Positions 21,991 through 42,793 of a DNA stretch of 64,000 bases are shown here, in pieces. The position numbers and the translations under genes are program-made. Within the stretch, counting starts at the first letter, position 1. Each line of letters starts with the position of its first letter. The notes beneath the pieces were generated by a model. It searched no databases, was not told the origin of the DNA, and saw nothing but the letters and a program-made list of their open reading frames with translations. Source of the DNA: Metabacillus litoralis (lineage in GTDB: Bacteria; Bacillota; Bacilli; Bacillales; Bacillaceae); NCBI RefSeq assembly GCF_003667825.1, contig NZ_CP033043.1, positions 3,032,001 through 3,096,000 of the forward strand. Direction: 5' to 3'.

Positions 21991-23631
21991 TTATGCTTGA
22001 TAAAAGGTTACCTGGTTCTTCCCCTTATCTTTAGATTGATAAAGGGCTTGATCTGCTAAATCAATAACCTCATCAGGTTCTATGCCACATTCAGGCCAAA
22101 TAGCTCCACCAATACTACATCTAATAACAACCTCAACTCCATCTCCTAACAAGATCGGTGAATTGATGGAACTAATTATGCTTTCTCCTAATTTGATACC
22201 TTCATCAATTCTGGAATTTGTTTCACAACGAATAATTAAAATGAATTCATCTCCACCGAGTCGAGCAGCAAAATCCCCTTCCTTAACAAACGTCTTCAGT
22301 CTTTCCGCAACTTTCACTAATAAATCGTCACCCGCCTGATGGCCGTAAGTATCATTTATATCTTTAAAGCCATCCAAATCCATAAATAAAAAGAGATAAT
22401 TTTCATCATTAGCTTCGTTTTCTAACTTTTTATCAATATAAGAGTATAATGCTACTCTGTTTGGTAGCCCTGTAAGGCTGTCTTTTAGAGCAAGTTTTTT
22501 CATTCTGCCAAGCTCAGATTTTGTTTCCATAATGGTTTCAACCATTTCTCTTAAGGATAAGGAAAGATCATTCAAGTCCTTAATTCGTGTGAAATAAGGC
22601 ATTTCTGTACGTTCTCCCCTTTTTAATTGATTGGCTGCAATAGCAATTTCCTTAAGTGGATTCGCAACTCTACCCGCAATAAACCAACCAATCACTGCAA
22701 ACAAAATCGCAGCTATCATTCCTACTGTTAATGTATAGCTTTTTAGCTTTTCAACCGAGGCAAAGGCATAGTCAACAGGCTCTCGTACAATAATCTTCCA
22801 GTTTAGACCAGGATAATTTAAATATCCATCACTGTATGAATAACTTGTTACATAGTCCTTTCCATCAGGCCATTTCCTAATATTCCAGTTCTCATCAGAT
22901 ACCGAATCGTCATTTGTAATCGATGTCGGCAAAGCTGTACCAATCATATCACCTGGACCTAACAGAATACGATTATCGTCTGAACGAATGATAAAAACTT
23001 CAACTCGTTTTGCACTTTTTAAGTGTGCTTTATACGGCTCAATAATCGATCTATGTATTTCTTTTGACCAATCCCAGCTAAGGTGAGAGGCTAGTACCCC
23101 CGAAAACTCTCCCTTCTGATTTCGGATTGGAAAGCTAATATCAACAAACTCCACAGGTTCTCCATTGGGACTAGGTATTAATTTTGCAAGCAATACCGCT
23201 TCATGGACATCACCAACAAATGGCTTTTTAATTGCCTCAAGATAAACAGGTCGCTCTTTAATGCTATTTCCAACTAACATATTATTTGTTGCTACAATTA
23301 CTTCCCCTTCTTTATCGGTTATTCCGACCCAGGAAAAAGAAGAGATGTTCTTTTGTAACTCGTTTAAAAGGACTCTCTTTTCATCAAGATTCCCCTCATC
23401 TTTTATCGTGTTTAGTTCACTAAGCAGTTTTAATTCGTTATATCGGGACCACATAAAAAAGTCTAATTTATCAGCCATCTGATAGGAAACATTTGATAAT
23501 GAGTTTCCAATTTCTTCTTCCATTTCCTCACTTGATTTAGATCCTACAGAAATAGTTAAAACAGCTGTTAACAATATAATAAAGATTAAAAATGTTAATG
23601 AAAAAAATGTCCGCAAACTAACATGTGACAT
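21991..23631 (-). CDS. membrane diguanylate cyclase with dCache sensor
   Basis: The 546-residue protein has a membrane helix (10-30), an extracytoplasmic dCache-type sensor (about 35-290), a second helix (299-320), a HAMP region, and a GGDEF domain. The catalytic motif RLGGDEF (GGDEF at 459-463) is intact, as are DSLTGLPNR and MDLDGFKDIND, so it should make c-di-GMP from GTP. The inhibitory I-site is not canonical: KEGD stands at 450-453 where RxxD is expected, which may relieve product inhibition. It is monocistronic. Confidence 0.93.
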   Translation of the reverse strand: MSHVSLRTFFSLTFLIFIILLTAVLTISVGSKSSEEMEEEIGNSLSNVSYQMADKLDFFMWSRYNELKLLSELNTIKDEGNLDEKRVLLNELQKNISSFSWVGITDKEGEVIVATNNMLVGNSIKERPVYLEAIKKPFVGDVHEAVLLAKLIPSPNGEPVEFVDISFPIRNQKGEFSGVLASHLSWDWSKEIHRSIIEPYKAHLKSAKRVEVFIIRSDDNRILLGPGDMIGTALPTSITNDDSVSDENWNIRKWPDGKDYVTSYSYSDGYLNYPGLNWKIIVREPVDYAFASVEKLKSYTLTVGMIAAILFAVIGWFIAGRVANPLKEIAIAANQLKRGERTEMPYFTRIKDLNDLSLSLREMVETIMETKSELGRMKKLALKDSLTGLPNRVALYSYIDKKLENEANDENYLFLFMDLDGFKDINDTYGHQAGDDLLVKVAERLKTFVKEGDFAARLGGDEFILIIRCETNSRIDEGIKLGESIISSINSPILLGDGVEVVIRCSIGGAIWPECGIEPDEVIDLADQALYQSKDKGKNQVTFYQA

Positions 23632-31255: not shown

Positions 31256-31621
31256 AAAAAGTCTCCTTTCTATCGCTATTAACACTAGTATATACCGTTT
31301 AAAGCAGTCTCTTAAACATTTTAGTTTCTTAAATAGATAAGAAAGAAACTAGTTCATTTTATCGTAACAGGTTCGGTTTACGGCTTTGAAGTAAAAAATA
31401 CGAATTATGCTTTTCATATAGTCATTCACACTAAGATTAAAAAGCAATTGGCAAGTAAATAAGTAAAGGTACACTTTACAATTCTCCAATCATTTTTATA
31501 CCAAGATAAGCACTCATAAAAGTGATTTTCAACTCTTCAAGAATTGCCAGGAAATAAGCTACTAAGATAAGCTTAGAAACTCCTCTTATTGAGGAAATAG
31601 CACAAAAAATAGATTAAATAG

Positions 31622-31752
31622 ACGGAAAGATTCCGCCTATTTAATCGAAAAAGATGAAAATGGACCATTTTACTTTACTTAACCGGAAAAACTCCGCTTA
31701 TATCCCTCAACCGAGTTCTATTCTTCAGTTTAACCGGAAGAACTCCGCTTAT
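31622..31752. repeat. three spaced copies of an ACCGGAA-N-AACTCCGCTTAT motif
   Basis: Copies at 31622-31640, 31682-31701 and 31733-31752 share the pattern ACCGGAAnAACTCCGCTTAT; each contains an internal GGAA/TTCC-type inverted core. Spacing is about 60 and 51 bp. They are the GC-richest spots of an otherwise AT-rich gap. No function is known to me. Confidence 0.55.
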
Positions 31753-32055: not shown

Positions 32056-34947
32056 TTATTTATTGTAATCTCCATTTTCGCTAGGAATGAGGATTTGACC
32101 ACTCCAGTCCTTTTTGAGCAAGGTCTGAAGAATCAACTTTGACAGTTTGCTTGGTTGATAAGGTTTTATTAGGTATTCGTTAGCTCCAAGAGCCAAGCCC
32201 TTTTCTTTTTCATCTAGAGCCGTTGAAATAAAGATTGGAATTGACTTAAATTCATCTATTGCTTTTAATTCCTTAATAATATCCCAACCATCAAGCCCTT
32301 TTTCCTCTAACATGATATCAAGGACAATAGCATCGGGCTTTTCTTCTTTTATTGCTGCTAATGCCTCTTCCCCGTTGCTGTAGATTTTTACATAAAAATG
32401 ACTTTCCTCTAATTCTGTTTGAAGAAGATTTGCAAGACTGTTATCATCTTCAACAATAATGACATTCACTTTGCCTTTGTTTTCCGGTTCATGAGGCTTA
32501 TCAACTTTAAGATTTCCCCCAATAACTAATGGGAAGCTAACAGTAAAAGTACTACCTTCTTTTAATACAGATTGTACGAAAACATCACCTTCATGGGCTT
32601 TCATGATTTCTTTTACAATAGCTAAACCTAGTCCTGTTCCACCGATTCTTCTTCTATCAGAATTATCTACTCGATAAAATTTTGTGAACAATTTATGAAT
32701 CGCATCTTCTGGAATACCAAGACCTTGATCTTTTACAGAAACGTTTAAATTAGGTCCTTCTTCAAATACATTGATAAAGATGTCTCCTCCATCTGGAGAA
32801 TATTTAATCGCATTGCTTATCAGATTATTAAACACTTGGCCAATCTTATCTTTATCTCCTAATACCATCGTATTACTTGTCTGAATATCACAATGTATCA
32901 TGTGAGAAGGATTATTCACTTGATAGGTTTCAACAATATTCATGATAAGTGGAACGAGATCATCGTACTTTTTGTCATAAGTTTGTTTTCCGGCTTCCAT
33001 TCGTTGAACATCCAAGAAATCATTAATTAAAGCTGTCAATCGCTTCGCTTCTTGGTAAATGGTTGTTAAATATTTTCTTTGTCGTTCAGGCTTTAACTCC
33101 TTATTCAGCATAAGTTCTGTAAAGCCAAGAACACTTGCTAGAGGTGTTCTAAGTTCATGGCTTACCGTGCTAACAAACTCAGACTTCATCACATCAACTT
33201 CATATTCCTTAGTGATATCACGGTGGACAATAACTGTTCCAAATTTTTCACCTGCTCTAGTCAGCGGTTCACAATATACTTGAACCACACGATTAGTAGG
33301 ACTATGTTGATGATAGATAAAAGAAGACTGATCTGTTTTACCGTCTATGAGAATTGAATCAAAAAATTGTTTTAATTCTTGTTTATTTTCAACCGAATTT
33401 GCTAGCTTAGAAAGCCATTTTTCATATGAATCTTCAACAAGAGTATCTCGGTGACATTCAATAATATCACATATTTTTTGATTAACCTGTATCACTTTAC
33501 CCTTTACATCAATAAGTTGAATTCCTTCATTAATTGTATCTAAAATATCTTGTGTTAATAAGCGTTCTTCCTCAGATTGTTCAAAAATATGAATTTTATC
33601 TAGAGAAATTGCAATCTGTTTGCTAAGTCCATCATATTCTACTAATTCATCCTCTTTGTAGGATGTAGAATATCTGGAGTAGACCATAATAGCCTCTATC
33701 TCACCTGAAGATGATAGCACAGGCATATACAGGTCGTAACAATAGGATTTAACAAGATGGAATCCTGTTTCTTCCTCATCACACTCTCGTTTTATTGTAT
33801 AAGGTTTTCTAAGCTCCTTTAACTTCTCAATCTCACCAGAATTTATGTTATGAATAAACTTCTCTACACCTTTTGATGAGAGACCAATACTAGCATGTTG
33901 ATATGTGCGATTCATCACAACAACAATTCCTTTATCAGCCCCTATTACCTCGCACATTGTTTGCACAATACTATCCAATACTCTTTGTTTATCTAGCGTA
34001 TTTGCAATACCTTTTACAAGATCATTTCGTCTCTTAAGATCCATCTCTCTATTCTGAGCAACCTCTAAAGCTTCTTCAAGCTCTGTCTGCTGTGCTTGCA
34101 ATTCATCCTGCTGAGCAAGTAACTCCTCATTTTGTGCACTCAGGTCTTGTTCCTTATCTTGTATACTCTTTGTCATTTTCTCAAATGCAGAAGAGAGAAG
34201 CCCTAATTCATCTTGTCTATTGGACGAATCAGTAAATAAAATAGGTTCCCCATCTGTTATCTGACCTGCAGCAAGGGTTAGCTTATTTAAGGGAGCACCG
34301 ATATTGTTCAGCATTTTTCGAACAAAAACAACCATACCAATAACTAATAATAATAGGAATACACCAAACAATATTTGATTAATTGTAATTTTTTTTCTTT
34401 GCTCATCTTTCAGAATAGTAAGGAGACCTTCAAGATTATCTGTATATTTTTTAATATTATTTTGATAGGTTCGAATCGTATCTGAACCATTTTGGTTTAC
34501 AGCTATTTGATAAACTTCTTCTGGCTGATTATTATCATATAGACTCTTAGAGCGAGGTATTACATCTTCAAAATAATAGTCGTAAAAGTCCTTTGTTTGT
34601 TGGATAAATAGTACATCTTCTTCTGTATCAGCAACATTTTCTAGTTCTGATATTTTTTCATCAACTATATCCCTTTGTTCTTGAACCTTATTATAATAAG
34701 TTTGTTCACCTTTATAAGCGAAATAGGCTCTCATTTCTGAAATGGCTAAATTAAAAGAGTAATCTAGGTCTGATACAATTGTTTCTTTTACTTCCAATTT
34801 TCTACTTTCATTATCAAAGTTATCCAAAATGGAGTTTTCATAAATCATCAAAGCCGCTACTAAAAGGCTAAAGACAAAAATAATTGTGAAAGTCAAAACA
34901 CCATATTGTCTAGCCAAACTTGTTTTTAAATATTTATCTAGCTTCAC
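32056..34947 (-). CDS. hybrid sensor histidine kinase with HAMP, GAF, PAS and receiver domains
   Basis: The 963-residue protein has membrane helices at about 17-36 and 192-211 enclosing a helical CHASE3-like sensor, then HAMP (about 213-265), a Gln/Glu-rich coiled coil (265-305), GAF (about 310-455), PAS (465-585), HisKA with STVSHELRTPLA (H597), an ATPase domain (NLISNAIKYSPDGG, DQGLGIPEDA, GGTGLGLAIVK) and a C-terminal receiver (from about 832; VIIVEDDN, DAIVLDIMLEE). Its start overlaps the preceding receiver gene by 14 bp. The terminal receiver could pass phosphate to the HPt domain of the nearby diguanylate cyclase. Confidence 0.93.
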   Translation of the reverse strand: MKLDKYLKTSLARQYGVLTFTIIFVFSLLVAALMIYENSILDNFDNESRKLEVKETIVSDLDYSFNLAISEMRAYFAYKGEQTYYNKVQEQRDIVDEKISELENVADTEEDVLFIQQTKDFYDYYFEDVIPRSKSLYDNNQPEEVYQIAVNQNGSDTIRTYQNNIKKYTDNLEGLLTILKDEQRKKITINQILFGVFLLLLVIGMVVFVRKMLNNIGAPLNKLTLAAGQITDGEPILFTDSSNRQDELGLLSSAFEKMTKSIQDKEQDLSAQNEELLAQQDELQAQQTELEEALEVAQNREMDLKRRNDLVKGIANTLDKQRVLDSIVQTMCEVIGADKGIVVVMNRTYQHASIGLSSKGVEKFIHNINSGEIEKLKELRKPYTIKRECDEEETGFHLVKSYCYDLYMPVLSSSGEIEAIMVYSRYSTSYKEDELVEYDGLSKQIAISLDKIHIFEQSEEERLLTQDILDTINEGIQLIDVKGKVIQVNQKICDIIECHRDTLVEDSYEKWLSKLANSVENKQELKQFFDSILIDGKTDQSSFIYHQHSPTNRVVQVYCEPLTRAGEKFGTVIVHRDITKEYEVDVMKSEFVSTVSHELRTPLASVLGFTELMLNKELKPERQRKYLTTIYQEAKRLTALINDFLDVQRMEAGKQTYDKKYDDLVPLIMNIVETYQVNNPSHMIHCDIQTSNTMVLGDKDKIGQVFNNLISNAIKYSPDGGDIFINVFEEGPNLNVSVKDQGLGIPEDAIHKLFTKFYRVDNSDRRRIGGTGLGLAIVKEIMKAHEGDVFVQSVLKEGSTFTVSFPLVIGGNLKVDKPHEPENKGKVNVIIVEDDNSLANLLQTELEESHFYVKIYSNGEEALAAIKEEKPDAIVLDIMLEEKGLDGWDIIKELKAIDEFKSIPIFISTALDEKEKGLALGANEYLIKPYQPSKLSKLILQTLLKKDWSGQILIPSENGDYNK

Positions 34948-35299
34948 CTAATATCTCCTCAATTCTTTCAACAAGCTGTATTGGGCTAAAAGGCTTTGAC
35001 ATAAAATAATTAGCTCCCGCTTCAAGTACCTTTTGCTGGTCAGTTGCCTGACTCTTTGCACTTAGCATCATGATTTTTGTTTGTATGTTTTCCTTTCGTA
35101 TCAATTCAATTAATTCTAAACCGGTATAAACAGGCATCATATAATCAAGCAGAATTAAATCATACTCATTCTGCTTAATGAGATCGTACGCCTCTTGCCC
35201 ATCACAAGCCTCATCAATTGAATACCCTTCATCTTCAAGAGTATCAACAACGAGCATTCGCAATACTTCTTCATCTTCTGCAAGTAATATTTTTGACAT
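34934..35299 (-). CDS. stand-alone receiver (CheY-like response regulator)
   Basis: This 121-residue protein is a single receiver domain: acidic pair in LLAEDEE, phosphorylated Asp in YDLILLDYMMPVYTG, Thr/Ser switch in MMLSAKS, Lys in YFMSKPFSP. It has no output domain, so it acts by protein contact or as a phosphate shuttle. It is translated with the hybrid kinase (14-bp overlap). A strong terminator separates the pair from the polysaccharide operon upstream. Confidence 0.93.
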   Translation of the reverse strand: MSKILLAEDEEVLRMLVVDTLEDEGYSIDEACDGQEAYDLIKQNEYDLILLDYMMPVYTGLELIELIRKENIQTKIMMLSAKSQATDQQKVLEAGANYFMSKPFSPIQLVERIEEILGEAR

Positions 35300-35330
35300 A
35301 TTATTTAACTCCCTACATCGCTTTCTTTTA

Positions 35331-35371
35331 AAAATCTCAGACCTGTAGAAATTTCACAGGTCTGAGATTTT
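35331..35371 (-). terminator. strong terminator between polysaccharide operon and receiver-kinase unit
   Basis: AAAATCTCAGACCTGT pairs perfectly over 16 bp with its complement, loop of 9 nt, followed by T residues on the minus strand. Confidence 0.85.
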
Positions 35372-35380
35372 CATTTTTGA

Positions 35381-38300
35381 TTATTCGTTAATATTGATTT
35401 TTTTAAATGTTTCCTGCAGATAATTGTAAGACTTCTTCAAGCGCTCATGATATGTTGGTTCATCCCAATTATCCCAAGAATATTGGATCCAATCACCTTC
35501 TAAAGTAGGTACCATCTGTACAGGTTCCTGATCTTTATTTGTGACAACAACCTTTGCAAAAAGAGATTGGATTATTTCTGAGCTAGCTATTCCTTTTTCT
35601 GACCATACATCGCCCATAATTTCTTTTTGACTTGGATCTTTCACATTAATCATTAACCAAGGAAGACGAAGTTCTAAAGTTCCATCCTTTATATAAAAAT
35701 CCGCAAGGGAAGTTGAGTTCTCCTTTTGTGGGTTGCCTACACCATATGTTAATTTTCCTGTCTCATATGATGAAAAAGGAACGGTCATTTGTCCTTCTTC
35801 TTTATTTATCGTCAATTCTTTGTTAAGTGTTAAGCGTATTGGGTGATAGATTCCATTATTTTTTTTATTCGCATAATCTTTTGTTTCAATCATATTAAGC
35901 ACTTTTCCATATTGATAATAGAATGTATCATAGTAGCTATCCACTAGCACTCTTGATTGATCCTCACCATTTATCTCTACAACAAAATCAATACCTTCTT
36001 CATTAACACGTTTCACATTAGGAATGGTCGATTGCCCTTGGTTTTTTATCGTATTTAACAAAATCGACGTATTATATTCTTCTGGATTCCATTTTGTTTG
36101 ATCATAATCAATTCTTATGAATAAACCTCGTTCATCACTAGACATGAAAACATTTTTAATTGCCTCTTCTTCATTACTCTGAGCAACCGGGTCTGCATTT
36201 CTAGCCTTCCAATCAGAAATGTCACCATCAATTTGTAGCTGTGTTTCTTGCGTATCAGGCTCAAAGCTTAACAGTCCAAAATGCTGCTCATTCGTTTGAA
36301 TATTATCCCAATATGGTCGACGATCTGAATTATCATATTCCATCGTGTTCCATGTTCGTTTAAACCACTCATCCTGCCATGAGAAAACAAGTCCTCCTGC
36401 CATATTTTGTTCAACAATATCTTCATATAGACTCGATAGAAATTGACCTTGTTCTTGTTCAGAATGATGTCCTTGGTCATAGCCATGGACATTTTCATGA
36501 GATAACCCTCGTGAAGCCGGAATTCCATACTCAGCAACCACCACTGGCATGTCATGATATTGTCTCATATCATTTAAATATCCAGCATAGTTATTCTTTT
36601 CCCCACGATGATCAATAAAGTTAACATATTTCTCCTCATAATTTAGAAATTCAGGATAATAAGGGTAAATATGATAAGAGGCAAACAAACCCGAATAAAA
36701 CTCGTCCTTAGCTTTTATTTTATTTGGATTAATGGATACCTTATCTTCATCCTCATCAGGCTCAGCAGGATGTGTAAGCAAATCAGTTGTCACCCAGTTT
36801 GCAAAACTCATTGGATGCTGCCATTGATAGTTTTCCGCTTCATATGATGCTGTATAATCCATCATTTCAGCGAGCCACACTTCAAATGGAGAGGCATTTT
36901 CAGTCATCATATACTTTCCGTTATAACTAGATTTAGTAGGATATTTTTCATTTGTTCTAATTACACTATCAGGATCCCACTCAACTCCAATAATCCACCC
37001 TAGAAGATACGGAGATAGATCATGAACATATTTTCCACTAGCATGACCTGTTCTTTCTTCAATGTCGGCATTTCCATGAATAATATCGACTGTTCGCTGA
37101 ATTTCCGCCTTAAAATCTTCCATTACTTCCGGATCATACGCCGTTCTTCCTGCTTCGTCATCAAAAAACACATCTTCATTTACCCATACACCGTGAAAGA
37201 GATAAAGAGGATCTTCACGGCTAATGTTATGCTCATATAATGCCTGATAAAAGGCTGGTGGATGTATTGTATAAACACGTAAAGCATTAGCATTCATTTC
37301 ACTTATCTGATCAAACCATCTTGCATATTCTTGTTTTGTTATGCCTGTTTCTCCAGGGAAGGTCCCCGGTTTGGCGATCCCCATATTCACACCTTTAATT
37401 AGGACATCTTCCCAGGCACCGTTTTGATAAACTTGTAGGTAGTCGTTAGAAGCAGCACCAGTTAGTTTCATTCCTTCTTTTGTCAAAACCTCTGGTTCAA
37501 CTTTTGCATTTTGACTAACAGCTGCTTTCTCTTTTTCTGTTAAAATGGTCGTCATCATTGGTACGTAAGCTTTCCAAAAGAATGTATCTGTTCTTCCCTT
37601 TTGCTCAAAAGAAAACAGCTTTTGCCACATCGACAAACCACTCATTTGATAAATACTTGGTACTTTCTCCTGATCAACAAAATCACCTGCAAAATAATAG
37701 CTATCATACATTTGATTATTATGGTGAATAACAGCTGGGAATTTTGTTGGTATATTAAATTCGTTTAACTTTTGTTGACCACTTTGTGTTAATGGTAAAT
37801 CAAACGTAGCTTGAACCTCTTCCTCACTACGCGCATTTACTATATCAAACCAATAGTTATATTGAATGGTTCTATCGATATCAAAGTTAGACAAACCTGC
37901 ATCTGTAAGTGTAAATAAGGCATGGTCATCAAATGTATCTTTGTTCGTCAAAACAACCACTTGATCTTCTTCGTTTACAAAAACAAAACCGTTTCCCGTA
38001 TATTTAAAAGGTTTTCCATATTGGGCTTCATAGTTCTTTTTCACCCAACCAGGCACTTCAGCAATGCTCAATTCATTAAAATACCGCCCCATCCAGCCAG
38101 TCCAATCTATGTTTAACAGGTTATAAAACTCCTGACGAACCTTCTCTTCCGTTGGGGATCCAAACGTATTAAATTCAGCAATAAGTGTTTGCTCATTTTC
38201 AATAAGAGACGCAGATAATGCTCTAACCTCTTCAATTGTCATCCCACCGTACAATAACTCTGAACGATTCCCTTCTTGATTCCCCTCAAGATATTCATCT

Positions 38301-38641
38301 TTATACACACCGTATCCATCAGCTAAATACAACACATCGTAAGGAGATAAATTGTCCGGAAGTTCTCTCGTATCAAATTTAGGTGGCTCATTACTTGGCA
38401 CAAATCCAACATAATCATTTTGTGCCTTGTATTCATCACCGCCATCCTTAATCAATTTCAAGTGATTCAGTAACCAAACTAACCCTTTATGTTCCCGATA
38501 AGATTGATCAGGTACCGTTTTATCAATAATCAATACATTAACATTTTCACTTGCTTTTAATTGCCATAACCAAAAAGGAGACGAGAATAAAACAAGTAGT
38601 AAAAATGGTCCTGTGATAATCAGTACATTTTTTTTATTCAT
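35381..38641 (-). CDS. membrane-anchored glycoside hydrolase-like protein of an exopolysaccharide operon
   Basis: The ATG at 38641 follows AAAGGTG and overlaps the stop of the glycosyltransferase gene by 8 bp. The 1086-residue product has an N-terminal membrane anchor (about 5-27). An extracytoplasmic first domain (about 35-380) contains YDVLYLADGYGVYKDE. A TIM-barrel region resembling glycoside hydrolase clan A/GH2 catalytic domains follows (about 390-790; GVNMGIAKPGTFPG, ANALRVYTIHPP, acid-base candidate E554 in GVEWDP, nucleophile candidate E704 in VVAEYG, FSWQDEW). The final 290 residues are beta-rich. It may trim, branch or release the polymer made by its partner. The exact family is not recognised. 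Confidence 0.7.
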   Translation of the reverse strand: MNKKNVLIITGPFLLLVLFSSPFWLWQLKASENVNVLIIDKTVPDQSYREHKGLVWLLNHLKLIKDGGDEYKAQNDYVGFVPSNEPPKFDTRELPDNLSPYDVLYLADGYGVYKDEYLEGNQEGNRSELLYGGMTIEEVRALSASLIENEQTLIAEFNTFGSPTEEKVRQEFYNLLNIDWTGWMGRYFNELSIAEVPGWVKKNYEAQYGKPFKYTGNGFVFVNEEDQVVVLTNKDTFDDHALFTLTDAGLSNFDIDRTIQYNYWFDIVNARSEEEVQATFDLPLTQSGQQKLNEFNIPTKFPAVIHHNNQMYDSYYFAGDFVDQEKVPSIYQMSGLSMWQKLFSFEQKGRTDTFFWKAYVPMMTTILTEKEKAAVSQNAKVEPEVLTKEGMKLTGAASNDYLQVYQNGAWEDVLIKGVNMGIAKPGTFPGETGITKQEYARWFDQISEMNANALRVYTIHPPAFYQALYEHNISREDPLYLFHGVWVNEDVFFDDEAGRTAYDPEVMEDFKAEIQRTVDIIHGNADIEERTGHASGKYVHDLSPYLLGWIIGVEWDPDSVIRTNEKYPTKSSYNGKYMMTENASPFEVWLAEMMDYTASYEAENYQWQHPMSFANWVTTDLLTHPAEPDEDEDKVSINPNKIKAKDEFYSGLFASYHIYPYYPEFLNYEEKYVNFIDHRGEKNNYAGYLNDMRQYHDMPVVVAEYGIPASRGLSHENVHGYDQGHHSEQEQGQFLSSLYEDIVEQNMAGGLVFSWQDEWFKRTWNTMEYDNSDRRPYWDNIQTNEQHFGLLSFEPDTQETQLQIDGDISDWKARNADPVAQSNEEEAIKNVFMSSDERGLFIRIDYDQTKWNPEEYNTSILLNTIKNQGQSTIPNVKRVNEEGIDFVVEINGEDQSRVLVDSYYDTFYYQYGKVLNMIETKDYANKKNNGIYHPIRLTLNKELTINKEEGQMTVPFSSYETGKLTYGVGNPQKENSTSLADFYIKDGTLELRLPWLMINVKDPSQKEIMGDVWSEKGIASSEIIQSLFAKVVVTNKDQEPVQMVPTLEGDWIQYSWDNWDEPTYHERLKKSYNYLQETFKKININE

Positions 38642-40043
38642 TTGACACACCTTTTCTAACCATTTCTCCCCAGCCTTTTTTCCCTATAAGCATTTCAAGC
38701 ATTCCCTCTACTCTCCAAATAACTGTTAAAGGGCGATACCAAAACGTTTCTGTTATAGATACAAGAAATAAGATCACAAAATGCTTCACTTTAGGATATC
38801 TTTCCATACTCCATTCCTCTAATAAAACTGAAGCCATAGAATAGATAGAACCGTATATTAATGAGAGTAGAAAGAAGATAATAGCATATTCTAAATAGAT
38901 ACTTCCTGCAAAAATAGAAAGTATTAGGATTATGTATCCTATTAATTCAATGAACGGACCTAAAAACTCAACAAAAAAGAAATATGGCATAGAAAACATG
39001 CCAATTGAGCCGTACTTTGGATTAAACATTAATTTTCGATGCTTCCATAAACTATCGAATAAGCCTTTGTGCCATCTTTTTCTTTGACGTCTTAAATATT
39101 TTATGGATTCCGGAGCCTCAGTCCAACAAACCGGGTCAGGTACATAGATAATCTTTTTGTTTTCTTTCTTTTCTTTAATTAATCGATGAAGTCTAACTAC
39201 AAGTTCCATATCCTCTCCAACAGTGTGAGCATAGCCACCTGCTTCAATAACCCACTTCTTTGAAAAAACGCCAAATGCACCTGATACGATGAGCAATAAA
39301 TTATTTTCACTTAACCCTACTCTACCGGTTAAAAACGCTCGTAAATACTCAACAATTTGCATAACGACAAGTGGTTTTTTTGGAAGATCTATCTTTGTAA
39401 GCTCACCATTCTGTATTTCACAACCATTAGCGATTCTAACACTACCACCTGAGGCTATGACCTCGTCATCTGATTCAATAATTGGCTTCAACACCTTCAA
39501 GAAAGCATTTCTTTCAATAATGGAATCGCCATCTAAGGAGCAAAAATAAGGATATTTTGAAAGATTAATTCCTGCGTTTAACGCATCTGCTTTTCCCCCA
39601 TTTTCCTTATCGATGACATACATATAAGGATAAATTGTAGATTGGTAAACGCCTTTGACTTCTTTTGTATTCAACTGTTTTCTAATTACTCGATTGATTT
39701 TCACCATATTAAAACGATCTATTAGCTTTTCAAGAGTATCGTCTTTTGAACCGTCGTTAATAATAATAATTTCATATTCAGGGTACTCAATACTTATTAA
39801 GGAGCGAATACTCCCATAAATACCCGCAGATTCATTGTAGGCAGGGACAAGAATGGAGACAGGCTTTGTAAATTCAGATTGTAGCAATTCTTCATAAGGT
39901 TCGACCTCATCTAACTCATAATTTTTACGTATATTGAGTAGGGAAATAACAAGCATTGCTCCATACACAACAATAATGATGATCATGTAGATAAAGATAA
40001 ACCAACTACCAACTACCAAAAAACTAGACCAATTAATATTCAA
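38634..40043 (-). CDS. processive family 2 glycosyltransferase (IcaA/PgaC/BcsA-like)
   Basis: A TTG at 40043 is chosen because AAAGGAGGG lies just before it; an ATG at 40094 lies deeper in the upstream gene without a ribosome site. The membrane protein has one N-terminal helix, a cytoplasmic GT2 domain with VSILVPAYNE, IINDGSKDDT, SLDGDSII, a GED motif (HTVGEDMEL) and the processive-synthase motif QRKRW, then four or five C-terminal helices. That set is typical of synthases that polymerise and export beta-linked sugars such as poly-N-acetylglucosamine or hyaluronan-like chains. No PilZ domain is visible. It is translationally coupled at both ends. Confidence 0.88.
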   Translation of the reverse strand: MNINWSSFLVVGSWFIFIYMIIIIVVYGAMLVISLLNIRKNYELDEVEPYEELLQSEFTKPVSILVPAYNESAGIYGSIRSLISIEYPEYEIIIINDGSKDDTLEKLIDRFNMVKINRVIRKQLNTKEVKGVYQSTIYPYMYVIDKENGGKADALNAGINLSKYPYFCSLDGDSIIERNAFLKVLKPIIESDDEVIASGGSVRIANGCEIQNGELTKIDLPKKPLVVMQIVEYLRAFLTGRVGLSENNLLLIVSGAFGVFSKKWVIEAGGYAHTVGEDMELVVRLHRLIKEKKENKKIIYVPDPVCWTEAPESIKYLRRQRKRWHKGLFDSLWKHRKLMFNPKYGSIGMFSMPYFFFVEFLGPFIELIGYIILILSIFAGSIYLEYAIIFFLLSLIYGSIYSMASVLLEEWSMERYPKVKHFVILFLVSITETFWYRPLTVIWRVEGMLEMLIGKKGWGEMVRKGVSNE

Positions 40044-41079
40044 CGCCCTCCTTTCCAAGCCATTCAAGGGCCATATCCTTTGCAAAACCATCATTGGATT
40101 CTGATACGACTTTTCGTAATAGATCTACCCCACCCTTAAACTGTAAAATTGCTTTGGCTGCCTCAGAACGAACAACATATTCACGATCAGATAATAATGA
40201 AACTAGCCGGTCTTTAAATGGACTTAGTCTTCTAACACCAGCAACTTTTGCCGCCATCATTCGAACTAGCCAGCTTGTTGACTCAAAGAACTTACTTAAT
40301 ATAGCTTCGTCTATTGGTGCCCCTGTGTTAGCAAATGCCTTTAAAGCTCTAATTCTTAACTCTTCATTACTATTTTCAAGTAATTTTTGAATTAGGTTAA
40401 TATGATGTAAATATTGCTTTTTTCCGATCGTTTCAATCATCATGTATTGCATTTGTTTTGATAATGCCCCAAAGTCATCTGCTAGTTCATTAAATTGCTC
40501 TTCTTTCAAGAGAGATAAAATAGATAATAGCGTGAAATTTGAAATAGCTGGATCAACATTCTTTAAATAATAAACAATCTGATCATCATGAAATTTAGCA
40601 AAAAGATTTAACATCTGAAATTTTTCAGTACGTGTTACATTTTTTTTAGCATATAATTTATGTAGCTCACCTACTAAGTGATTCATATAAAAATCCTCAA
40701 TAGAGTATAGAGCGTTCATTCTTAGGCTCCATCTCCGCTGCTTTAGTTCACTTTTCATATAATTTGTTAAGTGTTTATTTGCAAATTCGCTTATTTTTCC
40801 TTTTACATCCTCACTATCAAGTACATTAGAATATTCATTAAGCAATTCAATTAGGGCGATAAATTTCTCTTCTGTTTTATCAGGTTGTAAACTCCCTTCT
40901 TCACCCGATTGTAGAAAATGAAACATATCTAAGCGATATGTTTCTTTAAGATCGTCAATTTTTTTCCTTTTTTGATTATGAAAATGCTTTATAATTACCA
41001 AATACGTAAACAAACTAATTAAGATAAAAAACATTGCCAGAAATAAAATAAAAAGCACTACTAAACTTATCTCAAGCAT
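40033..41079 (-). CDS. membrane-anchored HEAT-repeat protein
   Basis: The 348-residue protein has an N-terminal membrane helix (5-30), a basic linker, and an alpha-solenoid of about six HEAT-type repeats, clearest at the end (EELRIRALKAFANTG, SWLVRMMAAKVAGVRRL, REYVVRSEAAKAILQF). It sits between the diguanylate cyclase gene (1-bp gap) and the glycosyltransferase (11-bp overlap), so it is probably a cytoplasmic adaptor for the synthase complex. No enzymatic motif is visible. Binding partner and c-di-GMP binding are unknown. Confidence 0.82.
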   Translation of the reverse strand: MLEISLVVLFILFLAMFFILISLFTYLVIIKHFHNQKRKKIDDLKETYRLDMFHFLQSGEEGSLQPDKTEEKFIALIELLNEYSNVLDSEDVKGKISEFANKHLTNYMKSELKQRRWSLRMNALYSIEDFYMNHLVGELHKLYAKKNVTRTEKFQMLNLFAKFHDDQIVYYLKNVDPAISNFTLLSILSLLKEEQFNELADDFGALSKQMQYMMIETIGKKQYLHHINLIQKLLENSNEELRIRALKAFANTGAPIDEAILSKFFESTSWLVRMMAAKVAGVRRLSPFKDRLVSLLSDREYVVRSEAAKAILQFKGGVDLLRKVVSESNDGFAKDMALEWLGKEGVEY

Positions 41080-41080
41080 A

Positions 41081-42694
41081 TTACTTCATCCTCTTAATTA
41101 AGTGACCTAATCGGGTTTCAAGCTCTAATAATTTAAACGGCTTTGTTATATAATCATCGGCCCCAAGCTGTAAGGCTCTAGAGATGTCATGTTCACTTTT
41201 TCGGGATGTTAGCATCATCACTGTAAATCTTTCCTGATATTGAAGACTTCTTAATTTCTGCAATACTTCCAATCCATCCATTCTCGGCATCATGCCATCA
41301 AGTATGAGTAAATATGGATCTTTGTTGTTAAGATGCCACCCTACTTCCATAAACTCCATACCATCTTTAAAGGTTTTAATATCAAGTGTAAATCCATCTG
41401 TAAACTTACTTTTACTGATTAAGTCCTCAAGCATTGTGCGAATTATTGGATCATCATCAATAATTCCAATGTGAATTGGTTTCTTAGTATATTTAACATT
41501 ATTTACAGCAGCCACTTTCACCTGATTTCTACCAGCCTGTTTCGCCTCGTAAAGTGCTCCATCTGCAATATCGATATTTCTTTTTAGCTCTAACTGAGTT
41601 GGGTGGACTTCATGAATTCCTGCAGAGAACGAATTATAGAATTTTGAATCTCCAAAACGAAAAGCAGTGTTGGAAAACTCCTTTAAAATCCGCTCAATAA
41701 CAAGTTTCGCCTCATTAGCTTCTGTTTCAGGCAGAAGGATAATAAATTCCTCACCACCATAACGAATAATGATGTCATTAACTCTTAGGCCCTTTCTAAC
41801 AACATCAGCGAATGTTGCTAAAACCTCATCACCTACGATATGACCGTATGTGTCATTCACTTGTTTAAAATGATCTAAATCAACAAGCACTAAGCAAAAT
41901 GGCTCATATCTTCTATTTAAATTACTAACCAAGCGTTCATAAGTTTGAGCTAAAAATTTCCTGTTATAAACCCTTGTTAGCTCATCGATTAACATTACAT
42001 CGTCAACAGCTTGTTTTCGCTCAAGTTGGCGGTTTATTCTTACAATAAATTCATCCATTTCCAAAGGTTTTTGTATGAAATCATCTGCGCCCAGCTTATA
42101 GCTTTTCATTCTGATTTCCTTTGATTTATCAACACTAATCATAATTGTCGGAATAAACTGTTGCTTCATTTTTTCCTTTATTTGCAACAGTACATCTAGT
42201 CCATTTTTATCTTTCATATGAACATCAATAACAACACAGTCAGGATTCAAGTCATAATAGGAATTAATAGCACGGTCTGGGTCAGCAACAGCAATCACCA
42301 CCCAGCCTTCTTTCTCTAATTCATCCTTAAGGTACATTAATAATGCTGTATCATCGTCTATGAGCAAAATAAGGTTTTTATCTTCATACTCTTTTTTGTT
42401 CTCAATAATTTCATCAACATTGGAATATTCTTCATAATAAATAATGGAAATAAGGGGTAGCAAAAAAGATTGCAATTCCTCTTTGTCCCAAACTCGTTCT
42501 TCATGCTCCTTTAAATGGCTCATCAATTCTTGGGCCATATCTCCTGCTTCAGAAAATCCAATGGTTGCAGCAGTTCCAGATATGGAGTGTAGGAAACGAT
42601 AAAGTTCTTTATGTTGAATTTCTTGTTGTTCATTTAACCAAGCTTCAAGCTGTTTTCGTACATTTTTAATTAATGTTTGCAAATATTTACTCAT
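41081..42694 (-). CDS. diguanylate cyclase with HPt, two receiver domains and GGEEF
   Basis: The soluble 537-residue protein has an HPt domain (1-90; LYRFLHSISGTAATIGF, phosphorylatable H36), a first receiver (108-225; D157), a GGDEF domain (230-395) and a second receiver (407-530; D466). The cyclase motif is RYGGEEF (313-317) with an intact inhibitory I-site RVND at 304-307. It should make c-di-GMP under phosphorelay control and with product feedback. It is the first gene of the polysaccharide operon, placing signal production directly beside its likely target, the glycosyltransferase. Confidence 0.93.
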   Translation of the reverse strand: MSKYLQTLIKNVRKQLEAWLNEQQEIQHKELYRFLHSISGTAATIGFSEAGDMAQELMSHLKEHEERVWDKEELQSFLLPLISIIYYEEYSNVDEIIENKKEYEDKNLILLIDDDTALLMYLKDELEKEGWVVIAVADPDRAINSYYDLNPDCVVIDVHMKDKNGLDVLLQIKEKMKQQFIPTIMISVDKSKEIRMKSYKLGADDFIQKPLEMDEFIVRINRQLERKQAVDDVMLIDELTRVYNRKFLAQTYERLVSNLNRRYEPFCLVLVDLDHFKQVNDTYGHIVGDEVLATFADVVRKGLRVNDIIIRYGGEEFIILLPETEANEAKLVIERILKEFSNTAFRFGDSKFYNSFSAGIHEVHPTQLELKRNIDIADGALYEAKQAGRNQVKVAAVNNVKYTKKPIHIGIIDDDPIIRTMLEDLISKSKFTDGFTLDIKTFKDGMEFMEVGWHLNNKDPYLLILDGMMPRMDGLEVLQKLRSLQYQERFTVMMLTSRKSEHDISRALQLGADDYITKPFKLLELETRLGHLIKRMK

Positions 42695-42764: not shown

Positions 42765-42793
42765 ATTCTAGAAAAAAGTTTATATTTTGACAA
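42765..42793 (-). promoter_or_regulatory. sigma-A promoter of the c-di-GMP/polysaccharide operon
   Basis: On the minus strand TTGTCA and TAGAAT are 17 bp apart, giving an untranslated leader of about 65 nt before the diguanylate cyclase gene. Confidence 0.65.

Follow-up and report, generated by a model that had tools for sequence, protein, structure and literature searches.

What do six neighbouring genes of Metabacillus litoralis, in which a processive-type glycosyltransferase is set among phosphorelay and cyclic di-GMP (c-di-GMP) signalling proteins, produce, and how might that product be controlled? Synthase-dependent exopolysaccharides build biofilms; only a few classes of them are known, most being under the control of c-di-GMP. 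The genes lie in a stretch of 64,000 nucleotides (‘the window’; assembly GCF_003667825.1, contig NZ_CP033043.1, positions 3,032,001–3,096,000), and all coordinates below are positions within it:

41081..42694, minus strand: Hpt-REC-GGDEF-REC protein of 537 amino acids (aa), hereafter the diguanylate-cyclase protein (DGC); open reading frame (ORF) and Pfam
40033..41079, minus strand: HEAT-repeat protein (HEAT), 348 aa, with one N-terminal transmembrane helix; ORF and Pfam (HEAT_2, E 2.4e-18)
38634..40094, minus strand: processive-type glycosyltransferase (GT2), 486 aa in the longest frame, likely start TTG 40043; ORF, Pfam and NCBIfam
35381..38650, minus strand: membrane-anchored, putatively extracytoplasmic glycoside-hydrolase-like protein (GHL), 1089 aa, likely start ATG 38641; ORF, structure model and fold
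34934..35299, minus strand: lone receiver (REC), 121 aa, with D52; Pfam
32056..34947, minus strand: hybrid histidine kinase (HK), 963 aa, HAMP-PAS-HisKA-HATPase-REC, with H597 and D877; Pfam

All six ORFs are open at these positions, and Pfam agrees with the domains that an earlier note on this DNA had assigned to them, GHL being left without a family match. As we show here, there is a widespread class of predicted synthases in which HEAT partners GT2, and the window carries its Bacillales form; family, fusion and neighbourhood evidence gives good support to reading the locus as a synthase of exported polysaccharide that is controlled by a phosphorelay and GGDEF.

HEAT lies directly before GT2 in all 14 close loci, and the order DGC-HEAT-GT2-GHL is kept in 13 of them, a conservation that argues against a chance gene set. 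The tight coupling and the HEAT solenoid beside the synthase that the earlier note had described are borne out: DGC and HEAT are separated by 1 bp, and, with the starts read from the sequence as TTG 40043 and ATG 38641, HEAT overlaps GT2 by 11 bp and GT2 overlaps GHL by 8 bp. REC and the kinase follow GHL in six of the 14 loci (the L025 kinase being split between two frames), and the same flanking genes surround the island in seven (L021–L026 and L033). In the exception to the four-gene order, L026, about 60 codons of GHL are left, followed by yugU (yug gene names are those of the first reading of the sequence), and no REC or kinase was found there; L009 looks the same. A GT2 of at least 53% identity is present in 24 of the 60 genomes compared (window genome counted throughout); the same genus accounts for 21 of the 60 and for 14 of these 24. 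A genome-private island is thereby ruled out. A homologue of the GT2 is also listed for Priestia megaterium. Of the earlier note’s picture, the co-occurrence of the first four genes withstood a search across genomes, and an island peculiar to this genome did not: the HEAT-GT2 core is widespread, and DGC-HEAT-GT2-GHL recurs across Bacillales.

In a sample of 398 genomes spread over the phylum Bacillota, 31 (window genome included) carry a GT2 match at E 1e-40 or better. We examined all 32 places in this sample besides the window’s own (L046–L077), as well as eight more from the 60-genome set (L078–L085): HEAT is directly upstream of, or fused to, GT2 in 30 of the former and five of the latter, the exceptions being L075 (where the GT2 frame is broken), L077 and L079–L081. 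Phyla beyond Bacillota were sampled through plasmid records and protein names. In each of the ten plasmid loci examined (out of 13 strong records), HEAT is upstream of GT2 as judged by our own hidden Markov models (HMMs), and in eight it is named HEAT in the record annotation; these loci come from two Bacillota (Paenibacillus and Planococcus), two haloarchaea, three Alphaproteobacteria, one Deinococcus and two Bacteroidota. Judged by such matches, Bacillota, Deinococcota, Alphaproteobacteria, Bacteroidota and haloarchaea all have representatives with HEAT directly upstream of, or in one chain with, this GT2.

The partnership coincides with a clade. Of the 101 GT2 rows in our tree, the 54 that are HEAT-adjacent make up one side of a single branch (Shimodaira–Hasegawa-like approximate likelihood-ratio test support 98), set apart from E. 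coli PgaC and 44 GT2s without HEAT, and the HEAT label changes once, as compared to 33.9 times in shuffles. The same grouping was recovered in a second tree, computed under a mixture model with the two longest known rows removed, both being quick trees without bootstrap that contain several long rows and whose root is not settled. Relatives lacking HEAT (L077, L079–L081) form a group neighbouring the HEAT clade. We define a HEAT-GT2 synthase by HEAT directly upstream or fused and a GT2 inside this clade; the window GT2 has both features.

Natural fusions suggest how the parts may be arranged. L067 is a single HEAT-GT2 protein of 1004 aa (Pfam); among the 120 best-listed of its 1410 matches (its own entry included), 116 combine HEAT_2 (PF13646) with GT2, and the names among them include Desulfosporosinus (the L067 query itself), Acetobacterium, Clostridium and Petrotoga. 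L070 joins HEAT, GT2 and GHLn in one chain (own HMMs; HEAT and GT2 also by Pfam), and L064 is a GHLc-HEAT fusion (own HMMs). Hydropathy places a transmembrane helix at 743 in L064, after the GHLc part and before HEAT, and at 1006 in L070, behind the GT2 domain; HEAT and GHL on opposite sides of the membrane would fit both helix positions. Furthermore, 53 of the 56 separate HEAT proteins shorter than 460 aa have a transmembrane helix starting within their first 60 residues. The fusions support one complex, probably with HEAT inside, the synthase in the membrane and GHL outside, and we propose that HEAT acts as a cytosolic regulatory or docking subunit of the synthase. Checks independent of our HMMs came from Pfam for L067 and L070, from precomputed Pfam domains on the fusion matches and from the record annotation of the eight plasmid loci.

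What could GHL contribute? It matches nothing in Pfam or NCBIfam at E 0.001, and its profile found no match among PDB sequences at E 10. Its structure model (predicted local distance difference test score 88.6) divides it as follows:

37496..38563, minus strand: N-terminal GATase1-like domain, residues 30–385, found in relatives also without the barrel or fused behind GT2
36251..37498, minus strand: TIM barrel of the clan GH-A type, about residues 385–800, with conserved E557 and E707 as candidate acid/base and nucleophile
35381..36250, minus strand: C-terminal beta-rich part, about residues 801–1089, by model secondary structure; carbohydrate-binding-like by inspection

The model thus predicts a GATase1-like domain ahead of a GH-A-type TIM barrel in which two glutamates are conserved; the C-terminal part may resemble CBM9. 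Identity of GHL to GH157 and clan GH-A glycosidases is 16%, and it differs from them by the GATase1-like domain in front. TPR-YaiO barrels adjoin HEAT-GT2 in Mesorhizobium and Bacteroides (L037 and L040; Pfam), and a YaiO-family protein is annotated in the record of the Emticicia HEAT-GT2 locus; two Gram-negative versions of the machine, as read from their domains, carry a predicted TPR-YaiO outer-membrane barrel in GHL’s stead. A Planococcus plasmid (L041) and another Bacillota genome (L076) share a second arrangement, in which GHLc-HEAT-GT2 is preceded by genes annotated in the L041 record as polyphosphate-polymerase-domain, DUF4956 and CotH-kinase.

What would switch such a synthase? We counted neighbours within three genes on the same strand, with domains lone or fused, around 60 HEAT loci and around 40 control GT2 genes chosen from the weaker matches in the 60-genome set; the counts are not independent, since many of the loci are closely related, and HEAT loci supplied part of the HMM training data. 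REC is near 45 of the HEAT loci as compared to one control, GHL near 34 as compared to none, GGDEF near 29 as compared to five, and HK near ten as compared to two; HEAT neighbours none of the controls. Around the ten plasmid loci we found REC at five, GHL at three and GGDEF at none, the Paenibacillus locus (L035) having a GGDEF domain about 5 kb away. The phosphorelay sites are mostly kept: in DGC, which carries Hpt H36, REC1 D157, the I-site RVND (304–307), GGEEF (313–317) and REC2 D466, the last of these is retained in 20 of 20 relatives, H36 in 18 and D157 in 16; D52 of the lone receiver is retained in 18 of 18, and H597 and D877 of the kinase in ten of ten. Two variants of the receiver deserve mention. 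In L054 and L058–L061 the gene immediately ahead of HEAT-GT2 encodes a receiver protein of 262–295 aa, and a hemerythrin-domain protein (Pfam) follows in L054. In L063 (11082–12029, minus strand) the receiver in this position has a DivIVA-like segment fused in front of it, by which the synthase could be directed to poles or septa.

It is conceivable, if on balance doubtful, that c-di-GMP is the real switch, with the receivers only tuning the cyclase, the GGDEF protein serving as a dedicated local cyclase or receptor and HEAT as a structural scaffold. The window DGC speaks for this, as its GGEEF and RVND are intact, the GG(D/E)EF and RxxD combination by which a cyclase is predicted to be active. 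At five of the 14 close loci the operon GGDEF motif is altered (GGEKF in L026, GSDEF in L028, GGDKF in L029 and L032, GGDVF in L034), and it is also changed in L047, L048, L067 and L070. Several altered orthologues (L026, L028, L029, L032 and L047) keep RxxD, as expected of a receptor like YdaK (PMC7064775); the other four (L034, L048, L067 and L070) have lost it and argue against a c-di-GMP switch, as do the greater frequency of REC than of GGDEF among the neighbours, the plasmid loci with no GGDEF that near, and the location of the genome’s only PilZ match (C1:2265961-2266290), far from the window. These motifs fit a cyclase able to become a sensor, much as YdaK, though not in every locus. 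Of the phosphorelay and c-di-GMP control put forward in the earlier note, the phosphorelay/GGDEF association stands on families, fusions and neighbourhoods, and the c-di-GMP part is plausible only. The genome has 23 GGDEF matches in all, one of them in a further diguanylate cyclase, encoded at 21991–23631 of the window (minus strand; dCache_1-GGDEF, 546 aa). A scan of the window against Rfam gave no family at or above its gathering score, and hence no known c-di-GMP riboswitch was found at that threshold.

Is the GT2 a polymerase? It carries D114, D188/D190, E294/D295 and Q337-R340-W341, and 52 of the 54 members of the HEAT clade retain all eight of these processive-GT2 residues. L073 and L074, second HEAT-GT2 copies in two genomes (G391 and G432), have lost DxD and ED (DGTAHQRW and DGHAHQGW as compared to DDDEDQRW), and their GT2 may be a pseudo-synthase subunit. 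We regard it as unlikely that the enzyme decorates a lipid or wall polymer with one or a few sugars, with no secreted polysaccharide and with GHL remodelling wall glycans. Consistent with such a role, the best-scoring NCBIfam family (PgaC/IcaA, TIGR03937) reaches 123.9 bits, far under the cut-off of 422.3; the retention of the Q-R-W, DxD and ED residues argues against it, as do the TPR-YaiO barrels beside two Gram-negative members and the hyaluronan synthases (E about 6e-6) that make up its whole-length matches among solved sequences, two entries for chondroitin synthase scoring higher over a short stretch only. As to the substrate, PgaC/IcaA being the best family and a sugar-phosphate nucleotidyltransferase and glmS following the Halosolutus module together hint, and only hint, at an amino sugar.

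Three further features concern transcription:

35329..35373, minus strand: intrinsic terminator behind GHL, ending the four-gene operon; fold −27.4 kcal/mol, z −8.87
42765..42793, minus strand: weak sigma-A-like promoter upstream of the DGC gene; promoter scan
31612..31646, minus strand: terminator-like hairpin between the kinase gene and yugU; hairpin scan

The folded hairpin lies directly 3′ of GHL, and an inverted repeat is seen by eye in the same place in all three relatives inspected (L021, L022 and L030); our window hairpin scan, with loops of 3–8 bases only, did not list it, probably owing to that loop range. Because this strong terminator separates GHL from REC, the operon is probably DGC-HEAT-GT2-GHL, with REC and HK as a second transcription unit. 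The earlier note had treated the six genes as one island and given its first four a single sigma-A promoter: the four-gene core survives this, REC and HK probably belong to a separate unit, and the promoter is present as a weak site that is partly kept in L021, L025 and L033 and not kept in L022 and L023, in a window where the scan gave 39 promoter-like sites as compared to 53.8 in shuffles. The commonness of HEAT repeats and the position of REC-HK behind the terminator would suit a chance or historical cluster, in which HEAT is a general adaptor and REC, HK and DGC serve other targets, but the single HEAT clade, the different types of fusion and the lack of HEAT near any control GT2 make this very improbable.

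The explanation that we consider probable is a synthase-dependent exopolysaccharide machine belonging to a class of its own, in which a phosphorelay and c-di-GMP feed into HEAT as a cytosolic regulatory subunit. GT2 would polymerise a nucleotide sugar, most likely an N-acetylhexosamine, and pass the chain through the membrane. HEAT, held to the membrane by its one helix on the cytosolic side of the synthase, would be the regulatory and docking subunit; GHL, anchored outside by its N-terminal helix, would meet the emerging chain with its GATase1-like domain and trim, cut or transfer it with its GH-A-type barrel. Phosphate would pass from the hybrid kinase to its own receiver, on to the Hpt of DGC and from there to the receivers; once phosphorylated, those of DGC and the lone REC would act at HEAT, and the GGDEF domain would make and/or sense local c-di-GMP via RxxD, much as YdaK does for the Yda synthase. 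TPR-YaiO barrels near HEAT-GT2 would favour this, being an export architecture that is presumably like NfrA’s.

Several points weigh against it. The machine is predicted from its genes, and GT2 motifs do not amount to proof of processivity. Neither REC nor GGDEF is as near as three same-strand genes in 11 of the 60 HEAT loci, the plasmid loci with no GGDEF within that distance come in eight of ten cases from outside Bacillota, and GGDEF motifs are altered among the close loci. REC and HK sit behind the terminator, GHL is missing from some close loci (L084 and L085), and the domain-calling HMMs were partly trained on the same loci. Finally, E. coli NfrB adjoins the HEAT clade, with a branch (length 3.37) too long for the placement to be relied on, and the clade may have a deeper link to Nfr.

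More tentatively, HEAT-GT2 could be a separate pan-prokaryotic synthase class in which HEAT docks phosphorylated receivers, a two-component switch on a membrane polymerase; c-di-GMP would then be a Bacillota-side addition made through GGDEF-receiver proteins and in places reduced to a sensor, with the outside partner (GHL or a TPR-YaiO barrel) swapped to fit the envelope. If true, a widespread HEAT-and-receiver class, archaea included, would imply an additional polymer family and offer a testable route by which a two-component system acts directly on a membrane polymerase. As for the place itself, the yugO-yugU slot holds a different GT2 gene in L086, L116, L117 and L122 (genomes G023, G030, G027 and G033), beside CNNM, SDF transporter and alpha-amylase genes (Pfam) in L117; in G030 a set of like-sized genes adjoins the HEAT-GT2 operon.

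How, then, does the locus compare with known systems? The earlier note held it to be distinct from ica, bcs and ydaJKLMN and knew of no described system with this gene set. Our results agree on both counts: our searches of an open-access collection of papers (most subscription journals lying outside that scope) found no description of a HEAT-partnered GT2 machine. With PgaABCD/IcaADBC, the poly-N-acetylglucosamine systems, it shares the best NCBIfam family and a suspected amino-sugar substrate; it differs in that GT2 scores far below that family’s cut-off and stands on a separate branch from E. coli PgaC, and, as the note had said, the six proteins have no IcaB/PgaB-type polysaccharide-deacetylase match. 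Like Bcs, it combines a GT2 polymerase with an operon glycosidase and a c-di-GMP enzyme; membership is rejected by the cellulose synthase score (TIGR03030, 32.5 as compared to 699.1 bits) and by the lack of a PilZ match in the six proteins, also as noted earlier. B. subtilis ydaJKLMN is likewise a Gram-positive operon with a GGDEF protein and a GT2; it is not known to have a HEAT protein or receivers. The window GT2 falls in a clade separate from the rows that we take, from gene order, to be YdaM-like (L095, L098–L100). YdaK is a degenerate GGDEF protein with an I-site and the c-di-GMP receptor for Yda, according to PMC7064775. E. coli Nfr (NfrA/NfrB) offers another GT2 synthase under local diguanylate-cyclase control: according to PMC8669469, NfrB carries its own C-terminal MshEN c-di-GMP domain and secretion by NfrA is a model, and the word HEAT is absent from that paper. 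On the window GT2, Pfam lists no MshEN match. A TPR-YaiO partner is not found by Pfam among the six window proteins and is present at the HEAT-GT2 loci L037 and L040, and we take these Gram-negative barrels to be comparable to NfrA.

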